27,084 nt of DNA from Spirogloea muscicola (lineage: Eukaryota; Streptophyta; Zygnematophyceae; Spirogloeales; Spirogloeaceae). The position numbers and the translations under genes were made by a program. The DNA lies in the NCBI GenBank assembly GCA_009602725.1, contig WELB01000009.1:661383-688466 (forward strand), in the 5' to 3' direction. This document shows, one piece after another, positions 444 through 27,084 of this stretch; the stretch's first letter is position 1; every line of letters begins with the position of its first letter. The notes below the pieces were generated by a model that had not been told where the DNA came from, did not search any database, and saw only the letters and a list, made by a program, of their open reading frames with translations.

Positions 444-3212
444 ATGCCGACGTTCATGCCCGACGACGAGCTGGCGGCGGCGGTGGAGGCCGGGGATGTG
501 GCCGCCGTCGCCATGCGCGCCGACGAGTTCGCGCGCGCCGTGGTGCTCCAGCTGGAGAGCACGCGCGCGAGGGCGGACGCTGCCAAGATCGATGCTGAGC
601 AGGTCTCACGTCGCCTCCCTCGTCCCTGACCTCTGTATCATCATACAAAGACCACATGACGCTATATAGCCGCTTGCTCGCTCTCGCCATGCTGGAAGAC
701 TCTTCGAGAGGCGCAACTGACAAGTGCGAGCTGGAAGGCGGGCCGGGCCATACTCTGATAGACAAAGGGCCAAGCAATGGGCATTTTCAACGATAGAAGC
801 CGCTGTACGGAAGTACGAGTGCATCAGATCTGGGTCTAGGTGAGGTGCTGGCTGAGTGTAGACCGATCATATTGTTAGCTAAAGCTGACCCCTCTGCATT
901 GATGCGCTCTGTGTCCTGTCCCCCTTTCCCAGACGTGCTCCCTCATCGAGCAAAAGTACATGGCGGTAAACAGCGAGAATGCGCAGCTGGAGCAGGAGAA
1001 GGCCCAGCTGACAGTGGCCCTGGAGACGCGTAGCACCGAGCTGGCAGAGGCTCGGGCCGCTGCCCACCTCCTTGAGCTGGAGGCTGTGAGCACCTCGCAA
1101 CCCCCCGCCTCGGGGGTCTTCGTGCAGAGCAGCAGAGAGAGAATGAACCCTTCTTGGAGTTAGCAGAAGGCTCCAGTCACGACAGTAGTATGAAAGCTGT
1201 AGAACAAGGTCTGCAGCTGTGCAAGATATGCATAAAAGTGTGACTGGTCCAACTTGGTGCTGCTTACACGCCTCTGCAGTCGTGCAAAAGGTTGGGTTGG
1301 AAGCGCGAGTGGTCTGAGTTGAGGACCAGTAGTGTTGTGACCGTGGGGCTAGGATGCACTGCCGCAGATGAAGAAGGATGGGGAGCTACAGCGGGCTGGG
1401 GTGCAGCTGAACGAGCTTCGGCGGGCTCGCAAGGAGCTTCTTGACCTCAATGGTCAGAAGGACCAGGAGCTAGAGGAGAGGAATGCTTCCATCAAGTCTT
1501 ACCTGGACAAAATCGTGAGCCCCCAGCTGGAGCATCTCAGTGCACGTGTCTTGATTGAAATCATTAAAAGCTGTGATGGACTCTTCGCGTGTCCTTTTTG
1601 CAAGCGTTTAGCTGCACATTGTATCAGCAATATTTCTGGACTTTTGGAGCTTACAGGAAGGTTTGCATGGCCATTGACCTGCGCAGGTTGCCTTGACTGA
1701 ACAGCAAGCTAGCCAGCAGGGTAGTCACCTTGAGGAGCAGGCCGAGCTTTTGCGTGCTAAGACGACCTTGACTCGCTTCCAACAGGTGCTTACCACTATC
1801 TTCCGGCTGGTGACAGGTCATCCCTGGAACATACCAGGCTAGTCCTCACTGGGTGCTCCGATGCATTCCTTATTGTTTATCTCAATCAGGCAGCTTTGTT
1901 GCCTATGCCATGCAGTAGCCTTCAGTCACAAAAGTCCTGGTCATGCTTTGCGGAGTCTTACAGATAGATGTATGATATGAATGGCTCACAGTTAGGCAGC
2001 TGATTGCATTACCTACTTTGTGCAGGAGGTGGACCTTTTGAAGCAGCACAATGCCTGGCTGAATGACGAGCTTAGCTCCAAATCAGAGGCTTTGCTCAAG
2101 GATAGGAGAAATGCAGCTGATATGGAGGCTGGGTTGCAATCTAAGCTGGCCGAGGTATTTGAGACATGGGCAACTTATTCTCAGCATAAAATCGTGAAGC
2201 AAGGGGCAACAGGCTGAGTGGTCATTGAGTCCCTGTTGAGAAAGACATAGAGGGCAGTACTTACTTCTGTAGCAAGCCCTATTGTCAAGGCTTATATGTC
2301 AGAAGCTTCGCGTTGTGGAATGGCACGCAGCTGAAGTGCTTACTTGCTGATACGCTCTCCAGGCAGAGAGCAAGGTGAAGGAGCTGACAGCTGCCAATGT
2401 ACGAGCTAAGGAGCGAGTCCAAGACCTGGAAGGACTTCTTGGGCAGCTGCGGCAGGTCAGTCAGCCTTCGGTGCACTTCAAATGCAGAATAATTCACAAG
2501 ACCCTGTGATCACCCTTAAGGCTGCAGAGCTCAGCGAGACCATGCTACAGCCCATACCTGCTAAATAACACAAGCCACTTTGTTCAGATTAGAGGTTCTT
2601 GAGTTGCCTTTCTCTTGAAGGAACCGTGTTCTGTTCAGGAGCTGAAAGTTGCCAATGAGGAAGCAAATTCTCAGGAGGGTCAATTCTTCGCCGAGATTGT
2701 TTTGGTGACTCCATATGCTTCTACAATTGTATATGCGTTGGGAACATACCCTGAAGAAGAATGTCATGGGACCAATGCTAGACCCTGCATCTCTGACTTG
2801 CTTTGGACGAGCTAATGTCACCTCCTGCAAGGCCACCTTCTTAGCCTGGTGGTATGTTTCAGAGTTGGTATGAAGTGGTGCAGGCAGTCTGTCTGTCCAC
2901 AGATTGCACCACATCCTTGACTGCTACTTCTTGTGGATGTCAATTGTTCACAGGCTAAGAAGCTGGCAGACTTGTACAAAGCTAGTGCAGAGGACGCCAA
3001 CAACAAAGCAACTGAGCTGGAAGGAGTTGTTAAAGCCATGGAGGTCAGCTGTGCACACTAGCATTGCATGTGTTGTTCCTACCAGCTTGCAAGAATCAGC
3101 TGATGGCTGATGTCATGATTCTCCTTCTCTTCATCAGGTTCACATCAAACAGCTCGAGGAGCTTCCGCAACAACTTCAGTCTGAGAAGGATCGAAATGAA
3201 GCCCTGCAAAAG
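444..3212 (+). other. NUA: NUA exons 1-9: N-terminal coiled coil (residues about 1-335)
   Basis: Exons: 444-602, 933-1085, 1368-1514, 1687-1785, 2026-2154, 2363-2455, 2639-2698, 2954-3043, 3138-3212. Every length is a multiple of three, so all nine introns here are phase 0. The protein is rich in E, K, Q, L and A with heptad-like spacing. It starts with an acidic MPDDEL segment, then TCSLIEQKYM, then KSYLDKI, then KKLADLYKAS and ATELEGVVKAME. These are in the same order as in plant NUA. The donor of exon 7 (GTTTTG after 2698) is weak, and that boundary was chosen because it keeps the frame and joins FFAEI to AKKLADLY, as the family alignment predicts. Confidence 0.9.
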
Positions 3213-6200
3213 GTGAACATAGTTTGTTGCCATCAACCAATATGTAACAATCGGAAGTTGCAAACGTTGGAGCAGGTGTTACTGATGGTTGATGTCACCA
3301 TGCTATGTGCTTGGTGGTTCAGCTCATTGTAAACGGCAGTCCAGCTCTGTCAGGATCTATAACATTAGAAGTTGGGTATTGGAGGCAACCTGAGCAAGTA
3401 TGCAAGTCAGGTGCAAGGTGGGAGAGCTTCAAGGATATCTCTTGAAGCTTGTTTGATTTTTTAGCACATCACTAGCGTGCTCACAAGCAGAAGGCGCACA
3501 GCTGGCTAGGCTTTAGTAATGGATGACAGCTCTTCTGTCATGCAGGGGTGGGAATCAGCAAGACGGCAATTGGAGGAGGAGCTTGCGGGTGCCAAGGAGG
3601 CACTTGCAAAGGCACAGGTCGTGGATGAAGGAAATTTGCAGCTTGCTTTGGCCGGCCACAGGGATAGTCGAGAACGTTTTGTCGAGCCGCTGTGAGTCTA
3701 CCTTTGATGAAAATCTTGACTGTATCTATTGAGTAGGTAAATGGCCTTAGAGCAATTACCAGATTTCTTCCTGCTGCACGAGATACATACAAGTACTTTG
3801 GTTAGTCTGGGTAATGATAAGAATATTCACAATCATTCAGTTGCTACTTTCCAGTGATATGCAGCTGGCAGTTGTCCTTCATGGGTCCACAAACGTTCCT
3901 CCACAGCTTCCTCAATATGTATCAGGCACGGCTCTGGCTGCCTCCCTTCTACGAGATGGGTGGTCGGTAAGGATTGCTGCCCAGCACAATCACATTGCAT
4001 CTCTGCAATGCGTCGATGCATAGAAGAGATATGATTAATCTAAGGTTTTGTGCAACTCAGCAATGTACGAGTTATGTTTTCTTTTTTGGGGATTTTTAGC
4101 CTTTTTGTGGGCTGTTTTCTGTTCTTCTTTTTTGCTTAGTCAGGAACTTTGGCAACAATCATATCGCATCAGTTACAATGTCATGCAGAATGCTTACATA
4201 CCAATTGATCTGTCACAGTTGTCAACTATGTACGAGAAGTACCAGGAGGCAGCCGATGCATGGAGACATGAGAGGCAGGCCAGGCAGCATGCGGAGGTGA
4301 TCCTGGAGAGAGTGCGGATAGAGATTGAGAAGAGGGCTGAATTTCTTATGCAAGAGCGTGGTATGTCTTGCTTAATGAGAATACTTTTGATACTTTATTA
4401 TGTACTGAGGAGCAGACCTGAATGCTTCTCCTTTCAGTGATCTTGAGCATTTGCTACTTAGCCAATGAGACTTTGATGATGCATTGAGATAATGGCATCC
4501 TCACTACAGTCACACGTGCTTTTGCAGACGAGCACGCTCAAGTCCTTGTTGCCTACAGCGTTGTTGAGGGCAAGCTTAAGGAGGCAGCAGGGGAAAGGCT
4601 CTCAATGCGCACTAGGATCAGGGACTGCATGGTACGTGTTATTAGCCTGCTTAAGTTGGTACTATGTTGTTGTAACATCGTTGTACTTGCTAATTGCCGT
4701 GTGTGCACCAATTCAATGCCATATGTGCACCAAGTCACTGGTAAGCCAACTGGCATTGCGAGGTGGCAGGCTGATCTTCGCAAGAAGGATAGGGACATCA
4801 AGAGCCTTGAGAAAGAGGTTGCAGATCTTCAGAACCAGGTGCATGTCTGTCACGGCAAAGAACAACAGTTCGTCACAGGCGAGAGTGTGTAGAGTAGCAT
4901 GCAAAGCAGAACAGCGAAGGGCGGCATGAGAGTGCATGCAGGTGCATGTATCAAGCACGCTACTCAAAAGCTTTGGTGCCGAACGATGAGCAGTCCAGCT
5001 TCTAGTTGAGGTTAGTAAATTGGTTATCTGGTAACACAAGCATAGCGGTACCTTGCACAAGGGCACTGGGGTGTTGTTACTGAAGCAAGTGGAAAATTAA
5101 GTGGAGAGGAGCAGTTAACTTGAGGTACTACATTTGTTACCTTGAGGTACTATTTCTTAGCATGTAAGGTATGGAACTGATGTAAGGCCTTGCTTTCTTG
5201 TACCAGGTGACCGTCTTACTGAAGGAGGGAACTGACAAAGATGGAAGACTCCTAGATATGGAGGGAGCAGAGGCACCCTCCACTCCTCCACACAATGACG
5301 AATCTGGATCTGATGCAATCATCACCGAGCGGCTGGTGAGGATCTGGACATCAACTGGACTTTCTTGCAGTACATCTTGGTTAACAATGTTGGATTGCTG
5401 TAGCAGTGGTACTCATCAATTGAGGTCCTTGGATCTAGATTTCGCTACAACGGGATCTTGTATAATTGCTGGGGCTGGCTTGCCTGAAATGATGCCGATG
5501 ACGTCTGCTACTGTAGAAGCCTTCAACTTCAAGACCCTTTTTGCAAAGGATGTGTTTCATCAGAAGTTGTCCTACTTGTAAAGTGTTGTCACAAAGGAGC
5601 TCCATGTGTCAACCACCCAGTCAAAGTAGTTTATCTCTTGCATCTGTACATTCATTTGGGCTAGATAATTTCAGGAATGCAAGAGTGTGTGACATGTTCT
5701 TTGTGTGCCAGGTCAATGTGAAAGACATACACAGCCTAGTTGAGCACAACACGCAATTGCGGACACTGGCCAGGACACTTGCTCGCGAGATCGAAGAGAA
5801 GGAGGTTGAGCTGAAGGTGAAAGCGTAAATGCGTGGATGCATTTCAGCTGGGAAATGATGTGCAAATATAGCACTATGATGCTATTTTGGCTTGATTTCC
5901 ATGTGCTACAGTAGTATCATGAATTTATGTTCTTGACAACACTGGCAAGGCCAGAGAAGTGCTTGCAGAAGTCTCAGCAAGACGTGGAATGGCACAAGGT
6001 CAGTCATTGACTTAGCATGGCAACTTAGCAGACTGTTTGCAAATGCAGGAGAAGTATGCAGAAGAGTTAGAAAAGCGAAGCGAGGAGAACATGGCCAGGA
6101 TTGAGCAACTTCTGGAGCAGTTCCGGGAGCAAAGCCGCATTGTCAATGCTGTCCAGGGGCAGGTGACTTACACAATGTGCAATCTGCAGGGTTGACGCTT

Positions 6201-21520: not shown

Positions 21521-21988
21521 CAGTCATACCTCGTTAAAGGCACCCACGGATAAGGGCACATTAGCGCAATCCCTCGATAGTGACACCTTTTTGCGGGAAG
21601 CACTTCTTTCCCCAGGCAAAAGTGACTCGATAAGGGAACGTGCCGTTATTTACAGGCACAGTTTTTCGGGGCAAATTCCCCCCCTAGAAGTGCCTAAATG
21701 AAAAGAAAGCAACATATCTCTAATATTCTCTACAGTGGTTAGGGTTGAGGTTTTGGGTTTAGGGTGTGGGGTTTAGAGTTTAGGTCTAGGGTTAGGGTCT
21801 AGTTTTTAAACCCTATGCCTAAACCTAAACCCAAAATGCCATTTTTCAAATATAATCTGATATACTGCTGATTGTCACGGTAGAAGCACATTTGGGGGCA
21901 ATAGTGCCTCTACAACGCACAAGCACACCTCGATATAGTCACACATTTTCGCCAAACCGGCCGACGTGCCTATAACGAGGTATGACTG
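21521..21988. mobile_element. 468-bp pogo/Tigger-like MITE with TA target duplication
   Basis: The left end reads CAGTCATACCTCGTTA and the complement of the right end reads the same 16 bases. The inverted repeats run 23 bp with one mismatch. The element is flanked by TA on both sides (21519-21520 and 21989-21990), the target duplication of the Tc1/mariner/pogo superfamily. A CAG...ACCTCG terminus is typical of pogo/Tigger-like elements. Subterminal motifs such as CTCGATA..GT.ACAC recur near both ends. It has no transposase frame, so it would depend on a transposase encoded elsewhere. It interrupts a fragment of the hairpin repeat. Confidence 0.9.
21737..21833. repeat. Inverted telomere-like repeats in the centre of the MITE
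   Basis: Degenerate TTTAGGG-type motifs (GGTTAGGG, GGGTTTAGGG, GGGTTTAG, AGGGTTAGGG) run to about 21801. They are followed by the opposite orientation (AAACCCTA, CCTAAACCTAAACCC) to 21833, so this part can fold into an imperfect hairpin. TTTAGGG is the telomere repeat of most plants and many green algae. The motif is degenerate and lies inside a transposon, so it is not a chromosome end. Confidence 0.85.
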
Positions 21989-22049
21989 TAGAGAAGAGTG
22001 GCTGGCATCAGACGCTAACAGTGTCAACTGTGCTATCTTCCTCAATCAG

Positions 22050-22118
22050 AAGAAAGGGCTCGCCCATTGAGGATAGGGGCTGGACAAGCCAGCCCAAAAA
22101 AGAATGAACAAAGAACGA
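22050..22118 (+). repeat. Copy E of the hairpin repeat
   Basis: Reads AAAGGGCTCGCCCAT, then GGGGCTGGACAAGCCAGCCC, then AAAAAGAATGAACA. It is the same architecture as copies B and C, with an extra base or two in the loop. Confidence 0.75.
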
Positions 22119-22431: not shown

Positions 22432-22505
22432 AGTAAGCCCTTCAGCAGGGGCTGTGAAAAGCCAGCCCAAAAAGGATGGACAAGATCCCAAGGGGCCCGA
22501 AGGAA
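22432..22505 (+). repeat. Copy F of the hairpin repeat, variant form
   Basis: Contains GGGGCTGTGAAAAGCCAGCC, then AAAAAGGATGGACA and GATCCCAAGG. The outer hairpin pairing GGGCTG/CAGCCC is kept while the inner bases differ from the main form. It directly abuts the coding repeat that begins at about 22510. Confidence 0.75.
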
Positions 22506-22509
22506 AAGA

Positions 22510-22795
22510 TCGTGTATTAGAAAGAAATGTAGGCCAAATGGCCAGGTACAAAGGCAAGCACATCTAAAAATCTACATAACCTACAGCAGATTGACCCGCT
22601 CAATAACCACGGGTCAAAACATAAAGGTCACTACTCGATGCATGAATACTAGATGCCAGGAACGGAGCCCTTCTGCCACCTACTAGAGCTCGCCCAGCTT
22701 TCTGGTGCAAGGCACTAGCCTGAGCACGCTGCAAACAGGCCGAAACTCGACGTCGCAAGAGCGACAGATATGCAGCTGGCAAGCCCATCTCAGCC
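22510..22795 (-). mobile_element. Coding repeat, copy 1: 3' end of an unknown conserved ORF
   Basis: On the minus strand this encodes a conserved C-terminus (GLPAAYLSLLRRRVSACLQR, then AQASALHQKAGRALVGGRRA, then SSIHAS and DLYVLTRGY) ending in TGA at 22602-22600. About 85 nt of matching 3' flank follow. It is closely similar to 25643-26016 and 26864-27084. Similarity stops at about 22795, so the copy is 5'-truncated; the frame stays open in GC-rich sequence up to 23139 without similarity to the other copies. I do not recognise the protein family. It is probably part of a mobile-element protein and is not a functional gene here. Confidence 0.7.
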
Positions 22796-23447
22796 GAAGG
22801 GGAGAGAGAAGGCGCGCGGAGCGCTTGAACTAAAAGGGAGGCAAAATCGAGCCAATACATTGAAAGCCCGAAAGCGGCAATGCCATTCTTTCTCCATGTC
22901 AACGGAGGGCTGCTCCGCGGCCAACCTCGTGCGGTAGCCGGCGGCTCTGCTTGTCGCGCACTATCGCACGCACCTGTGTGCCGTCTCGTGCCTTGAAACG
23001 ACAGCCACGACAGGCCGGGCGGGGAATGCGGCGTCGCCTGCGCGTCAAGGCCCAGCCGCCTCCTGCCCGGTGCTGCTTGACGAGGCTGGCGTGGTGCCTG
23101 CACAGTAATTTGTCGGCCCGCCACGAGGCTCAGGGCCACGAGGCTGCCGGCCCGGCCCGTCTGCCACCGCCAGCCGGGCTGTTTGCACAGGGCTTGCCCG
23201 CCCTCACTGCTTGACCCGCATCCACTGTAGATCTCAGCGCATCTCGCAAGCTACAAGGCCCGTTCCGGCTCTTGGGCGGCTACAATGTGCAGTCTGAATA
23301 TGTGTATTATGTCATTACGATCATTTAGTCCCGTACCATGTCCTCACTATGCGACAGTGCCGAACTCCATGCCCAAGGGAAGAGGAACGAGAGCTCGTTT
23401 CAGACGGGAAAGAGGAGCTTTATAGCGTAGCTTTATGATTTAGCGCC
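22796..23447. other. GC-rich spacer without a supported gene
   Basis: About 22900-23220 is CpG-rich, with small internal duplications such as CCACGAGGCT at about 23119 and 23137. Open frames occur on both strands but none has a protein-like pattern, a clear start or splice structure. 23220-23447 is mixed sequence with nothing recognised. Confidence 0.4.
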
Positions 23448-23482
23448 ATTGGACCTTGTCCAATGTTGGGCTGGCCTTTCAT
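23448..23482 (-). repeat. Short copy G of the hairpin repeat
   Basis: Contains TTGGACCTTGTCCAATGTTG followed by GGGCTGGCCTTTCAT. The GGACC..TGTCC half-palindrome and the left hairpin arm are kept while the right arm is lost. Confidence 0.55.
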
Positions 23483-24099
23483 AAGAACGCTTTTTTCTTC
23501 ACAAGGAGAGGCTTGTGAGGCAGCCTTGGTAGTCGTTCATTCACGAGTGGGCGGCAGGCAGGCCTTCACCTCCTCACGCGCGCCACCATGCCCGACGTCC
23601 TGCAACGCTGTCAGGTGGAGATCACGCGCGGATAACGTTGCGAATGTGGGGCGGGCGCCGGGTCGCGACGGCAGGAGGAGTAGGGCGCCCGACAACGCAG
23701 GCGACCTGGCCCGCCCCGCCAGCCCGACATTCCGACCCCCAATGCCTTCTCCAGCTAGTTGCACCTACCACCCACTCCCAGTTATTTCCTCCTGTGCCCG
23801 CCACATTCCACGCCCTCCGCGGCCGCGCCGTGCGCCTCACCCCGCTGGCGCTCACAGCCCCACTGGACTCCCAGCACAGCTATCCACCGCCCCAAGATCT
23901 TGGCGTCCGCTGCCCGCTCGCTCGGTAGCGACCGATCGATCTTGAGATCCTTCACCGCCACCTCGTCAGCACTGTCGTCATCATTGTCCTAGCCATTCGA
24001 CTGCAAGCTACTCTGACATGCGGCTGCTGACTAGGAAATAGTTTAGCACCTAATTATTTAGCAACTTGAGCTTCAGCGCCTTTCGGCGTTCATGGTTCA
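23483..24099. other. CpG-rich island, no confirmed gene
   Basis: About 23530-23960 is CpG-rich, like the starts of NUA and the minus-strand gene, so it may be a promoter or first-exon region. Two candidates are visible: an ATG in good context at 23588 with only 15 codons before a stop, and a minus-strand open stretch (23988-23782) reading DNDDDSADEVAVKDLKIDRS that lacks a start codon. Neither is strong enough to call. Confidence 0.35.
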
Positions 24100-24250
24100 T
24101 GGCCCCTTCGAACCTCTGTCAATTCTTTTCGGGCTAGCTTTTCACAGCCCTTGCCCCCATTGGAGTGCCACTTCTTCTTCCGGCCATTTCGGACCATGGC
24201 CATCCTCCTGTGGGCTGGCCTTTCACAGCCATAGTCCCTTACTGGGAGTA
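24100..24250 (-). repeat. Copy H: two hairpin-repeat units in tandem
   Basis: The first unit (24100-24180) contains TGTCAATTCTTTTCGGGCTA with GCTTTTCACAGCCC, then CCATTGGAGTGCCACTTCTT. The second (24181-24250) contains GGACCATGGCCATCC, then GGGCTGGCCTTTCACAGCC. Both are the variant form with a GGGCT.G/CAGCC pairing. On the complementary strand they read CAGCC...GAATTGACA, as in the other copies. Confidence 0.65.
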
Positions 24251-25144
24251 CTGGGAAGAGCTTTCGTTGTCAAAGTCACTAGCCCCTCTTGCATTGCCTC
24301 TGGAGAGCTCCCATGCTTGAGTACATGGCTTGCCCTAAGCAAGTACCATGTTCTTGAATAGCCAGTGTTTATTGATCGCAACCTTTAACTATCCATGGAC
24401 TTGTTGTGACGTTCAGGATGACCAGGCACTGCATAGAGCAGGTCGATCCCACACCCAGCTCGTTCATGCACGTCTGGTGCATACAGTTGTCCATGTGTTG
24501 GTTACGCACTCGCTAGCCTTTACCTTGCACCTTCAGGCCGGTGCTTAGATGCTGCTATACCTAGCCATGGGGTTTGTACTCTTCCGGTAAACTGTCTGCT
24601 ACCGTCTGCTGTCTCGTACCTACTGGGCTTGCATGATGGCCACGTCGCTAATGCTTGCTTAAATTGTGGGCAACTCTGCATCACACAACCAATACAATAC
24701 CCATTGCAGTAATTGTATTACCTCACCAATGCTTCTGGCTATATCTTGCCAGCTGGTCCTACAGAGATATCGCTCTTTGAGTCTCTGATGGATCGCAGAG
24801 TGTGCCTCATTATTTGCCGCTGTGCTCTGTCTTCATTTTGCCACGGACCTTTGCGTAACAAAGTATTCATAGTCCCTCTGTTTTTCTGTGCCTGGCAACC
24901 TTAATCTTGACTTATGGTGGCAGGCCTCTGCCAGCAATGGCTATGTCGTGGTAGCGCTGGCCCTTCACACAAGCATACAGGCCCTTCATCAATTTATGAC
25001 CGAGGAGTTTCCCAACTTACATAGACGAGGGGCACACAGCTACCACCCTAGGGATGGCATGCGAGTGGGCTGACCCAATTGCCATACTTTGACCTTCTCG
25101 ACCGTCCATGGTGGAGCGTTTTCAATGTGAGAGCATGACAGCAT

Positions 25145-25165
25145 TATAAATTAGATGCTAATTTA
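25145..25165. repeat. AT-rich inverted repeat
   Basis: ATAAATTA (25145-25152) and TAATTTAT (25158-25165) form an 8-bp perfect stem with a 5-base loop. It is the first of three palindromes within 375 bp. Confidence 0.75.
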
Positions 25166-25275
25166 TGCCACACCTTTACGTGGGAGCGCAGCACCACACA
25201 CATTCAGGGGCGTCAAAGGGAGCTCCGGCAGCTGACATCCCACCAATCGGTTGCTGAACAGCGATTAAGTGACTA

Positions 25276-25311
25276 ATCCTCCGCCCCCACTCTTGAGTGG
25301 GGGCGGAGGAT
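25276..25311. repeat. Perfect 36-bp GC-rich palindrome
   Basis: ATCCTCCGCCCCCACTC (25276-25292) is followed by TT and its exact reverse complement (25295-25311), giving a 17-bp perfect stem with a 2-base loop. Imperfect pairing continues outward (TTAAG on both sides after a few unpaired bases). It lacks a following T-run and there is no nearby gene end, so I do not call it a terminator. Confidence 0.95.
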
Positions 25312-25493
25312 CTCTTAATACACCCGCATTTCCTCTTGAGACAGGAGCATGCCCACCCGTCTTTTCTCGAAATTGTTATGCGGTATGAGCTGGTTGTGTT
25401 TGCGGTGCTGCGTTTGGCTTTCTCGCCTGCTAAAAGTAAGAAATAGGAATGGCCGCTCCACAACAGCCGCAAGCACGCTGATTTTGCTCTTCG

Positions 25494-25519
25494 CCAGTCT
25501 ACAGAGTTCTGTAGACTGG
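25494..25519. repeat. Perfect 26-bp palindrome
   Basis: CCAGTCTACAGA (25494-25505), GT, then TCTGTAGACTGG (25508-25519) form a 12-bp perfect stem with a 2-base loop. It lies 183 bp beyond the larger palindrome and has the same near-zero loop. Confidence 0.95.
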
Positions 25520-25642
25520 AAGACTGGAAACCTCAAGCTATCTATCGTGGATGGGAAGGTACGATGCTTGCACCTCTTAACCTAACTGCATGAACGAATA
25601 GACGGTTCGGTCTGGCCTCCATTTCATTTCATGAAGAGGATT

Positions 25643-26016
25643 GCGTGTATTTCAAACAAACGTAGGCCAAATGGCTGAGTACAAAGGCAAGCACATTCAA
25701 AATCTACATAATCTACAGCAGATTGACCCGCTCAGTAACCACGGGTCAAAACATAAAGGTCGTCAATCGATGCATGAATACTAGATGTCAGATACAAAGC
25801 CCTTCTGCCACCAACTAGAGCTTGCCCAGCTTTCTGGTGCAAGGCATGAGCCTGAGCACGCTGCAAACAGGCGGAAACTCGTCGTCGCAAGAACGACAGA
25901 TGTGCAGCTGGCAAGCGCATCTCAGCCTGAAACACATCTGCACGTCGTGTGTAGCCTAGATTGGCATTGTTTTGAAGGAGGGTGTGGAAACGAGGACTCA
26001 GACAGCCAGAGATAGT
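25643..26016 (-). mobile_element. Coding repeat, copy 2: longest copy of the unknown ORF end
   Basis: The minus-strand frame ends at TGA 25734-25732 and is open to about 26094. The conserved part reads GCLSPRFHTLL, then LGYTRRADVFQAEM, LPAAHLSFLRRRVSACLQRA, LHQKAGQALVGGRRA and DLYVLTRGY. Relative to copy 1 it keeps about 70 more upstream residues, shared with copy 3. Its 3' flank matches copy 1 to about 25643. Upstream of 26016 no similarity to the other copies can be checked in this window. It is probably a decayed fragment of a mobile-element gene; I do not recognise the family. Confidence 0.7.
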
Positions 26017-26671
26017 GATTGCCGCTGGCAGGAGCTGATCGCATTGGGGGTGATTGGAGTAGTGCTGCATCTTTCTTTGTTCTGCACCGCCCACTGCGTG
26101 ACCAGCGATGTGTGTGGATGCTGGACCTTTACCTTTATATACGCCTCCGCAACAACAACGTCGACCAGGGCCCGTGGTCCTCCACCAGGTTGCACGCCCA
26201 CAATGTCAAGTGTGCGGCGATGATGACGTAATTTCATGGGCACCGCAAGGCCTGTCCATGAGAGAAAGTGTGCAGCGCAAATGAAAGGCAAGATGACCAG
26301 ATTATGCTAGTACACAATTCAAGCAAAAGCCAGTGCAATGAATGAGGCTACACAGAGCGAAGTCCTATGCTGTGGTGGGCTGAGGTAACAGTGCGTAAGC
26401 CGGCTGAAGCGTGACTTCAGTACCCACGAGTGAGCACAAGTATATTCAACCTTTCAAAAAAGTTGGGGAGCCGGAGCACCGCCACAAAGCTAGAGGCCTT
26501 TCAGGTCTCTGAGCGGCGCCTGCGCCCAGCACGCCGATGAACAGCTTGGGGTAGGGCCGCCGCTGCGTCAACCCGCCACCTTAGCATAGGGCTTCGTTAC
26601 ATGTAGCCCCAATTTCTGCACTAGCTGTTGCCTAAACAGTGTATAGGCTTCAATTGGCCACCCTCTCATTG
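26017..26671. other. Unassigned sequence between coding-repeat copies
   Basis: The overlapping open frames 25998-26291 (-) and 26019-26231 (+) may include further upstream, frame-shifted parts of the coding repeat, but I have no second copy to compare. No RNA gene or promoter is recognised at 26300-26671. Confidence 0.4.
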
Positions 26672-26716
26672 CATGCGCACCGCGCGCCTTCTCTCTCTTC
26701 ATGCGCACCGCGCGCC
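26672..26716. repeat. 17-bp direct repeat (CATGCGCACCGCGCGCC)
   Basis: The same 17 bases occur at 26672-26688 and 26700-26716, separated by TTCTCTCTCTT. The CT-rich sequence after each copy is also similar, so this looks like a local tandem duplication of about 28 bp. Confidence 0.85.
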
Positions 26717-26726
26717 ATCATTCTAT

Positions 26727-26853
26727 CTTCTGGGCTGGCCTCTCACAGCCACCGCCCTCTACCAGGAAGAAAGCGCGGCCAGATTGACTGGTGGCGGGGA
26801 AAGGCCAGCCCATAAGGAATGGACAAGGCCTCTCACAGCCACCGCCCTCTACC
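26727..26853. repeat. Hairpin repeat pair I1/I2 with a 27-bp direct repeat
   Basis: I1 (26727-26763, -) reads GGGCTGGCCTCTCACAGCC. I2 (about 26790-26827, +) reads GGGGAAAGGCCAGCCCATAA and then GGAATGGACAAGG. The 27 bases at 26737-26763 recur exactly at 26827-26853, so the right end of I2 carries a second copy of the I1 arm. I2 lies immediately upstream of coding-repeat copy 3. Confidence 0.75.
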
Positions 26854-26854
26854 G

Positions 26855-26892
26855 CCGCAATCGACACTTTTGGCCGCAATCGACACTTTCGG
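26855..26892. repeat. 19-bp tandem duplication
   Basis: CCGCAATCGACACTTTTGG (26855-26873) is repeated directly at 26874-26892 with one C/T difference. It overlaps the first codons of coding-repeat copy 3. Confidence 0.9.
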
Positions 26893-27084
26893 CTGCTTGG
26901 GTCCTCGCTTCCATACCCTACTCGAGAACATAGCGAGTCTGGGATATGCACGACGCGAGGATATGCTCCCAGCCCAGATGGGTATGCCGGCAGCCTATCT
27001 GTCATTTCTGCGACGTCGAGTGTCAACCTGTCTGCAACGAGCTCAGGCGTATGCTCTGCATCAGAAAGCTGGTCGAGCCTTAGC
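26864..27084 (+). mobile_element. Coding repeat, copy 3, running off the window end
   Basis: The plus-strand frame reads LLAAIDTFGCLGPRFHTLLE, then SLGYARREDMLPAQMG, PAAYLSFLRRRVSTCLQRA and LHQKAGRAL, and continues past the end of the window. It aligns codon by codon with copies 1 and 2, and most differences are synonymous. It is in the opposite orientation to the other two. No stop or frameshift is seen in the available part, so this may be the most intact copy. The protein family is not recognised. Confidence 0.7.

Follow-up and report, generated by a model that had tools for sequence, protein, structure and literature searches.

Three diverged copies of the end of one open reading frame (ORF) lie toward the right edge of a stretch of DNA from the alga Spirogloea muscicola. 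This stretch, here called the window, is 27,084 nucleotides (nt) long (GenBank assembly GCA_009602725.1, contig WELB01000009.1, positions 661,383 to 688,466 of the forward strand). The copies raise two linked questions: what protein did they once encode, and how did they come to lie here? We conclude that the three copies are very probably the dead 3' ends of autonomous non-long-terminal-repeat (non-LTR) retrotransposons, or long interspersed nuclear elements (LINEs), of the type that encodes a restriction-like endonuclease (RLE).

Full-length relatives and the three window copies

Full-length copies were assembled from the genome, as a sequence-only reading of the window had suggested. The genome searched comprises 153 Mb in 471 contigs, and the element counts given here are lower bounds. 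Three families were recovered: A, B, and C. Family A is about 3.97 kb at full length and carries one open frame of 1267 codons; it is present at loci L010, L011, and L013, and the elements in L010 and L011 are identical over 3970 nt. Family B has 1313 codons and was found in L012 and L018, whose elements share 99.7% identity over 3956 nt; at the DNA level, A and B agree at 78% over 3150 nt. Family C is a more distant relative, with a 1130-codon frame in L016 that is 44% identical to A (42% over the C-terminal part), and it also occurs at L002 (oriented 2066-3090).

The extents of the window copies were set by blastn against the full-length A and B relatives. Copy 1 (22501-22796, minus strand) is what 5' truncation left of a family-B LINE, a 3' end that matches the B element in L012 at 99.7% over 297 nt. 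It retains only the last 64 codons and the 3' tail of B. The codons (AEMGLPAAY...DLYVLTRGY) and their stop occupy 22600-22794 on the minus strand and are 100% identical to B residues 1250-1313; the 3' untranslated tail (22505-22599, minus strand) contains GGCCATTTGGCC, was aligned with 8 other tails, and folds with a z score of -1.12 against shuffles. Copy 2 (25644-26229, minus strand) is an older 5'-truncated B-like copy, 88.9% identical to B over 587 nt. Its endonuclease D-x14-D segment (RHHRRTLDIVGVQPGGGPRALVDVVVAEAY; 26139-26228, minus strand) is 96.7% identical to B residues 1152-1181 and is out of frame with the remainder, with a frameshift between 26130 and 26139. The K-x2-H-Y motif and the C-terminal domain follow (25735-26130, minus strand; 85.6% identity to B residues 1182-1313).

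Copy 3 (26872-27084, plus strand) derives from a family-A LINE and is 5'-truncated; its 213 nt match element positions 3577-3789 of the A element in L011 at 100%. It is cut by an assembly gap, with N from the base after 27084, and because the window stops there its own 3' end is unseen. A partial duplicate of its first bases stands at its 5' junction (26855-26871, plus strand), where CCGCAATCGACACTTT occurs at 26855 and again at 26874. The duplication spans about 16 nt (window 26855-26889); template jumping as reverse transcription finishes could leave such a structure.

The codons of the copies bear the mark of a protein. Over the 35 in-register codons shared by copy 1 and copy 3 (26978-27082), the sequence-only reading had counted 18 with synonymous change, 4 with amino-acid change, and 13 identical; our recount gives exactly these numbers. 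The 24 base differences fall at codon positions 1, 2, and 3 as 8, 1, and 15. When 24 random substitutions were placed on copy 1, a mean of 14.9 amino acids changed (minimum 8), and 4 or fewer changed in 0 of 4000 trials. The many synonymous differences reported between copies 2 and 3 are also borne out, with 33 of 72 codons synonymous, 20 altered in amino acid, and 19 identical. A decaying non-coding repeat is ruled out by this codon-position pattern and by the intact ORFs of the relatives. The synonymous excess is a between-family signal, separating copy 3 from copies 1 and 2. Copies 1 and 2, both B-like, show a ratio of nonsynonymous to synonymous substitution rates (dN/dS) of 0.66 over only 64 codons, which is nearer to neutral drift.

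Protein anatomy

What does the full-length ORF encode? The protein of family A begins with a proline-rich N-terminus that includes a C2HC finger at residues 247-266 (PF13913, E 4e-4, below its cut-off). A reverse transcriptase (RT) follows, matched by Pfam RVT_1 at residues 554-752 (E 1e-18; 1.1e-16 in B) and bearing YADD at 713. After a long linker come a Cys/His knuckle (1043-1061), the RLE signature residues, and a conserved C-terminus. The RT, the knuckle, and the RLE residues are read directly in the ORF. The Pfam scan took in the A and B proteins; it found no AP (apurinic/apyrimidinic) endonuclease, RNase H, or protease in either, and no c-myb domain, leaving the C2HC finger as the single N-terminal one.

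RLE motifs (H, D/E, D..D/E, KX2KY, knuckle, and GXW) were taken as defined in an excerpt of PMC5678591, and the signature residues were placed by motif and order, with A-protein numbering. Six residues are invariant in all 3 families: H1071, E1092, D1113, D1128, K1155, and Y1159. H1071 is the histidine expected at the start of helix 1, and E1092 the D/E expected at the end of strand 1; D1113 and D1128 are separated by 14 residues; K1155 and Y1159 are the K and Y of KX2KY. The exact KX2KY occurs only in family C (KERKY), and A and B lack the second K, which the same excerpt describes as less conserved in LINE RLEs (PMC5678591).

A single ORF with a zinc finger before the RT, a knuckle and RLE motifs after it, and no AP endonuclease is the architecture of an RLE-encoding LINE, the endonuclease being recognized by motif. 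These motifs and this architecture support the C-terminal segment as a putative RLE of LINE type. By architecture and signature residues, then, the A, B, and C elements classify as RLE-encoding LINEs, with no named clade assigned. The peptide that drew attention in the window corresponds to the last hundred residues of the protein, directly downstream of the RLE signature, and probably forms the end of an endonuclease/DNA-binding superdomain. The suggestion that it is the end of a mobile-element protein proved right: it belongs to a LINE ORF with an RT.

Absence of an AP endonuclease bears on one alternative, a Dualen/RandI-type LINE with both an AP endonuclease and an RLE, a group reported from Chlamydomonas and its relatives. 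Excerpted descriptions place Dualen elements in green algae (PMC8226300) and give them an RLE-like nuclease (PMC3636483), which is the likeness to the elements described here. Against it, Pfam finds no AP endonuclease in the 1267- and 1313-residue proteins of A and B, and the A element in L011 starts just 67 bases upstream of its open frame. For A the defining feature of the group is contradicted, and we consider this alternative very improbable.

The RLE-type reading also agrees with the affinity of the RT, though weakly. A profile of the A, B, and C RTs, run against solved structures, matches R2 proteins best (E 1.1e-7), ahead of retron-type (2.8e-6), group II (1.9e-5), and LINE-1 (3.6e-5) RTs; this is a ranking by similarity and not a phylogeny, and it hints at an affinity with R2. 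NCBIfam gave only a below-cut-off match to a group II RT, in A, and PHROGs gave no match for A and C. No relatives were confirmed in viral contigs or in prokaryote genome contigs.

Selection acts mainly on the active lineages

Values of dN/dS were computed by the Nei-Gojobori method for pairs among A, B, C, two B copies, and the window copies. Purifying selection between families is seen directly: A and B give 0.15 over 1246 codons, with differences at codon positions of 218, 149, and 554. By part, the ratio is 0.34 in the N-terminus, 0.15 before the RT, 0.10 in the RT, 0.14 in the linker, 0.04 in the knuckle and RLE (130 codons), and 0.07 in the C-tail, so that the knuckle and RLE region is the most constrained. 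Comparisons of A or B with C give 0.33-0.36, with synonymous sites near saturation. The two B copies give 0.67 (41 differences), and copy 2 against B gives 0.30 (132 codons).

Because dN/dS is low between families and nearer to neutral between copies, selection is mainly on the active lineages, and copies drift once inserted, as is usual for LINEs. The claim that the parent sequence has been under selection as a protein thus stands for A against B, and does not extend to copies 1 and 2. The three window pieces look like coding sequence because they are the broken-off ends of young LINE families under protein selection.

Copy number, insertion sites, and the 3' tail

LINEs of these families are abundant in the genome. 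A 185-nt piece of copy 3 recurs at 100% identity in at least 40 places, the window included (40 of 1536 candidates scored), and the C-terminal protein query gave at least 151 matches (150 of 16,703 first-look candidates scored). The endonuclease segment of family C gave 4191 first-look candidates. As rough numbers, first-look candidates amount to 1622 for the 3' tail and 85 for the A 5' end. At least 9 of the C-terminal matches listed lie in an open frame of exactly 1267 codons, and 9 of the 40 listed matches to the A 5' end cover the 122-base query at 100%. Given these exact frames and full-identity 5' ends, family A looks recently active.

Junctions were studied at 37 loci compared with A, of which 30 were picked through a 146-base tail and 7 were found without it; a 3' boundary within 6 bases was accepted as a filter. 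All 37 cease to resemble A at one 3' boundary, past which the loci have different flanks, apart from L044 and L045, which have one in common. Directly beyond the boundary there is a T run, 2-5 nt long in 34 of 37 loci, and a C stands directly after the T run in 34 of 37. At the 5' side, two loci start at position 1 and one at 44, and the latest start lies at 3798 of 3967. In 9 loci, 2 running off the fetched piece and 7 abutting gaps, the 5' start is an upper bound only, and dropping 9 on these grounds left 28 loci usable for target-site duplications (TSDs). The duplications are short and variable and occur at part of the sites: TSDs of 6 nt or more are present at 11 of 28 (range 6-20 nt), compared with 1.6% of mismatched flanks, and TSDs of 10 nt or more at 3 of 28, compared with 0%; the longest is 20 nt. 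Insertion sites are scattered and C/T-rich, and the copies listed lie on many contigs.

The common 3' boundary, 5' truncation, C/T-rich sites, and TSDs are as target-primed reverse transcription (TPRT) predicts. On the model of R2 biochemistry, the protein of the single ORF would most likely bind the element's own RNA near the 3' tail, the RLE would nick one strand of a C/T-rich target, and the nick would prime reverse transcription, starting at the RNA's 3' end. Recognition of the tail, the role of the RLE in nicking, and the order of nicking and priming are all borrowed from R2. The RT would usually halt early, leaving 5'-truncated copies.

Two other kinds of element were considered and rejected. 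An LTR retrotransposon is ruled out: no repeats at the two element ends were seen by eye, and copies are 5'-truncated with one 3' boundary. A site-specific element targeting ribosomal RNA (rRNA), transfer RNA, or U2 genes finds no Rfam match in the loci scanned at gathering score (20 of 48 loci, 83,851 bases, comprising 18 of the 37 junction loci and 2 B loci) nor in the window.

The insertion junctions also bear on a host origin, in which the copies would be what is left of a family of host genes, or of a LINE gene that was domesticated and kept for a host function. Strong purifying selection between A and B would fit such a gene. The dozens of identical copies with a common 3' boundary, 5' truncations, and TSDs contradict it, and the window copies are truncated, one of them frameshifted. 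We give a host origin almost no credence.

Could the tail carry a recognition signal? Most tails have a GGCCA/TGGCC hairpin of 4-5 bp, and 23 tails were gathered by a pattern that requires it. Among 9 aligned tails, window copy 2 has lost part of the hairpin, and covariation was not seen by eye. Since the tails were selected by pattern, fold like shuffled sequences, and show no covariation by eye, a role in recognition stays a suggestion. Several young A copies adjoin family-C-type tails. The hairpin-tail motif of family-C type occurs near the site on the same strand in 5 of 30 loci, against 17 of 399 distant stretches (Fisher p 0.013), and on the opposite strand in 0 of 30, against 22 of 399. 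We claim no preference for such tails, as the motif was chosen after the flanks had been viewed.

Weighing the endonuclease assignment

Several observations weigh against an RLE-type LINE. The knuckle spacing is CX1CX11-12HX3C and departs from the CX2-3CX7-8HX4C published for RLE LINEs (excerpt of PMC5678591). Leu-Asp or Ala-Asp replaces the catalytic Pro-Asp, and the GXW motif expected after strand 4 reads GCL or GAF. No Pfam model matches the last 225 residues even at E 10, in keeping with the earlier remark that this C-terminus had not been recognized, and no PDB sequence matches the last 368, again even at E 10, in a collection that includes R2 structures. A structure model made from the window sequence only has a mean predicted local distance difference test (pLDDT) score of 36.9. 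In the RT profile search, chain 8gh6, which we take to be Bombyx R2, ranks below LINE-1 (E 2.6e-4); when A alone is the query, R2 (7.2e-4) falls behind group II and retron-type RTs (2.9e-4 to 5.2e-4). At the junctions, 17 of the 28 usable loci lack a TSD of 6 nt or more, and the 3' tails fold no better than shuffles (z -0.69, -1.12, and 0.22). As the C-terminus has no PDB or Pfam match, the RLE is assigned from motifs and architecture and not from a fold.

An alternative built on these points is that the elements are LINEs whose C-terminal segment is a diverged DNA-binding remnant and not a working RLE, with a host nuclease or that of a partner LINE making the nick. It draws on the C-terminus that matches no nuclease by structure or profile, on the missing GXW motif and Pro of PD, and on insertion that is not site-specific in the loci seen. 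Yet the knuckle and RLE region is the most constrained part of the protein between A and B, both Asp, the Lys, and the Tyr are invariant down to family C, and the Pfam scan of the A and B ORFs turned up no other nuclease. We judge this alternative unlikely, and retain an RLE-type LINE as the explanation.

Neighboring repeats and other features of the window

Further repeats surround the three copies. A repeat with the sequence CATGCGC(C/A)CCGCGCGCC occurs at window 22803-22862, where it adjoins copy 1, at 26640-26717, and in L012 (oriented 2801-2980). In L012, next to the B element, it makes a fold-back, and by eye the 3' flank of copy 2 looks related to it; it is perhaps a miniature inverted-repeat transposable element or the end of another element. 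Pieces resembling family-C 3' tails (GGGCTGGC, with a CAGCCC-type hairpin) were recognized by eye at window ~22040-22110 and 22440-22500 (minus strand), 24130-24210, and 26720-26830; they are probably the ends of other LINE families.

A degenerate telomere-like tract at window 21735-21860 runs from TTTAGGG-like to CCTAAAC-like repeats, and the sole exact TTTAGGG of the window is at 21758. Nine of the longer open frames of the window (157-487 aa) match no Pfam family at E 0.01. Elsewhere in the genome, bacterial-type small-subunit (SSU) rRNA gave seven matches on five contigs, which are probably organelle DNA. Locus L014 (G000:C19:529625-530010 and flank) has a bacterial-type SSU rRNA fragment with an apparent B-type LINE tail close by, and probably represents organelle DNA carried in a nuclear contig, into which a LINE inserted later.

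Relation to known elements

How new are these families? The RT is standard, and the architecture is that of known RLE-encoding LINEs (the group of R2, NeSL, R4, HERO, CRE, and Utopia). A match to a well-known element group was found as to the kind of element, and not as to any named family, in collections that included no library of named LINEs. The suggestion that the element is undescribed does not hold for the kind, an RLE-type LINE, and may hold for the lineage.

Families A, B, and C resemble the R2 superclade in their single ORF, N-terminal zinc finger, RT, Cys/His knuckle, RLE-signature residues, and 5'-truncated copies, and R2 proteins are the best match to the three-family RT profile among solved structures. 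In contrast to R2, A and B have one N-terminal C2HC finger and no c-myb by Pfam, the knuckle is spaced otherwise, L/A-D stands for P-D, and the single-sequence search with A ranks group II-type RTs first. Nor was insertion at the 28S site found, as the 20 loci scanned with Rfam gave no rRNA match.

The Utopia/NeSL clade, described in an excerpt of PMC4640811 as having one to three N-terminal zinc fingers, an RT, a zinc finger, and an RLE in a single ORF, shares this order of parts with the elements studied here. Unlike Utopia, they show no insertion in or next to U2 small nuclear RNA genes (no U2 match in the same 20 loci), and unlike Utopia/NeSL, A and B have no RNase H or protease domain found by Pfam. 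HERO and the cockroach element BLAG are, according to excerpts of PMC4640811 and PMC7650587, RLE LINEs with dispersed insertion; insertion without strict site specificity is a likeness to them in description. Zepp and Zepp-like LINEs share the many 5'-truncated, nested copies; however, the excerpted account places Zepp in the L1 group and in tight clusters (PMC8226300), whereas the copies listed here lie on many contigs. By their defining features, and as far as tested, A, B, and C are not R2, Utopia, or Dualen.

These families stand out for their dispersed insertion, for a knuckle with odd spacing, and for Leu-Asp or Ala-Asp where Pro-Asp is expected. A literature search in which Repbase and most subscription papers fell outside the scope recognized no RLE-only LINE from an alga. 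We entertain, tentatively and at less than even odds, that A, B, and C constitute an RLE-LINE clade of their own that has yet to be described. Such a clade would combine a diverged (L/A)D..D..KX2(K/H)Y core, a new knuckle, a loose C/T-rich preference in place of strict site specificity, and a high-copy, dispersed distribution.

Implications

LINEs that encode an RLE attract study both as machines for site-specific insertion and for what they may reveal of the earliest LINEs. It has been speculated that early LINEs were perhaps site-specific and that this would pay most in small genomes (excerpt of PMC4640811). If true, the reading of an undescribed clade goes against the idea that compact single-celled genomes confine RLE LINEs to safe multicopy sites. 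An RLE-type family that is dispersed, high in copy number, and recently active in a eukaryotic genome of 153 Mb would be a counter-example whose position in the tree merits attention, and the several identical intact copies of this family could serve directly in tests of the determinants of target choice.

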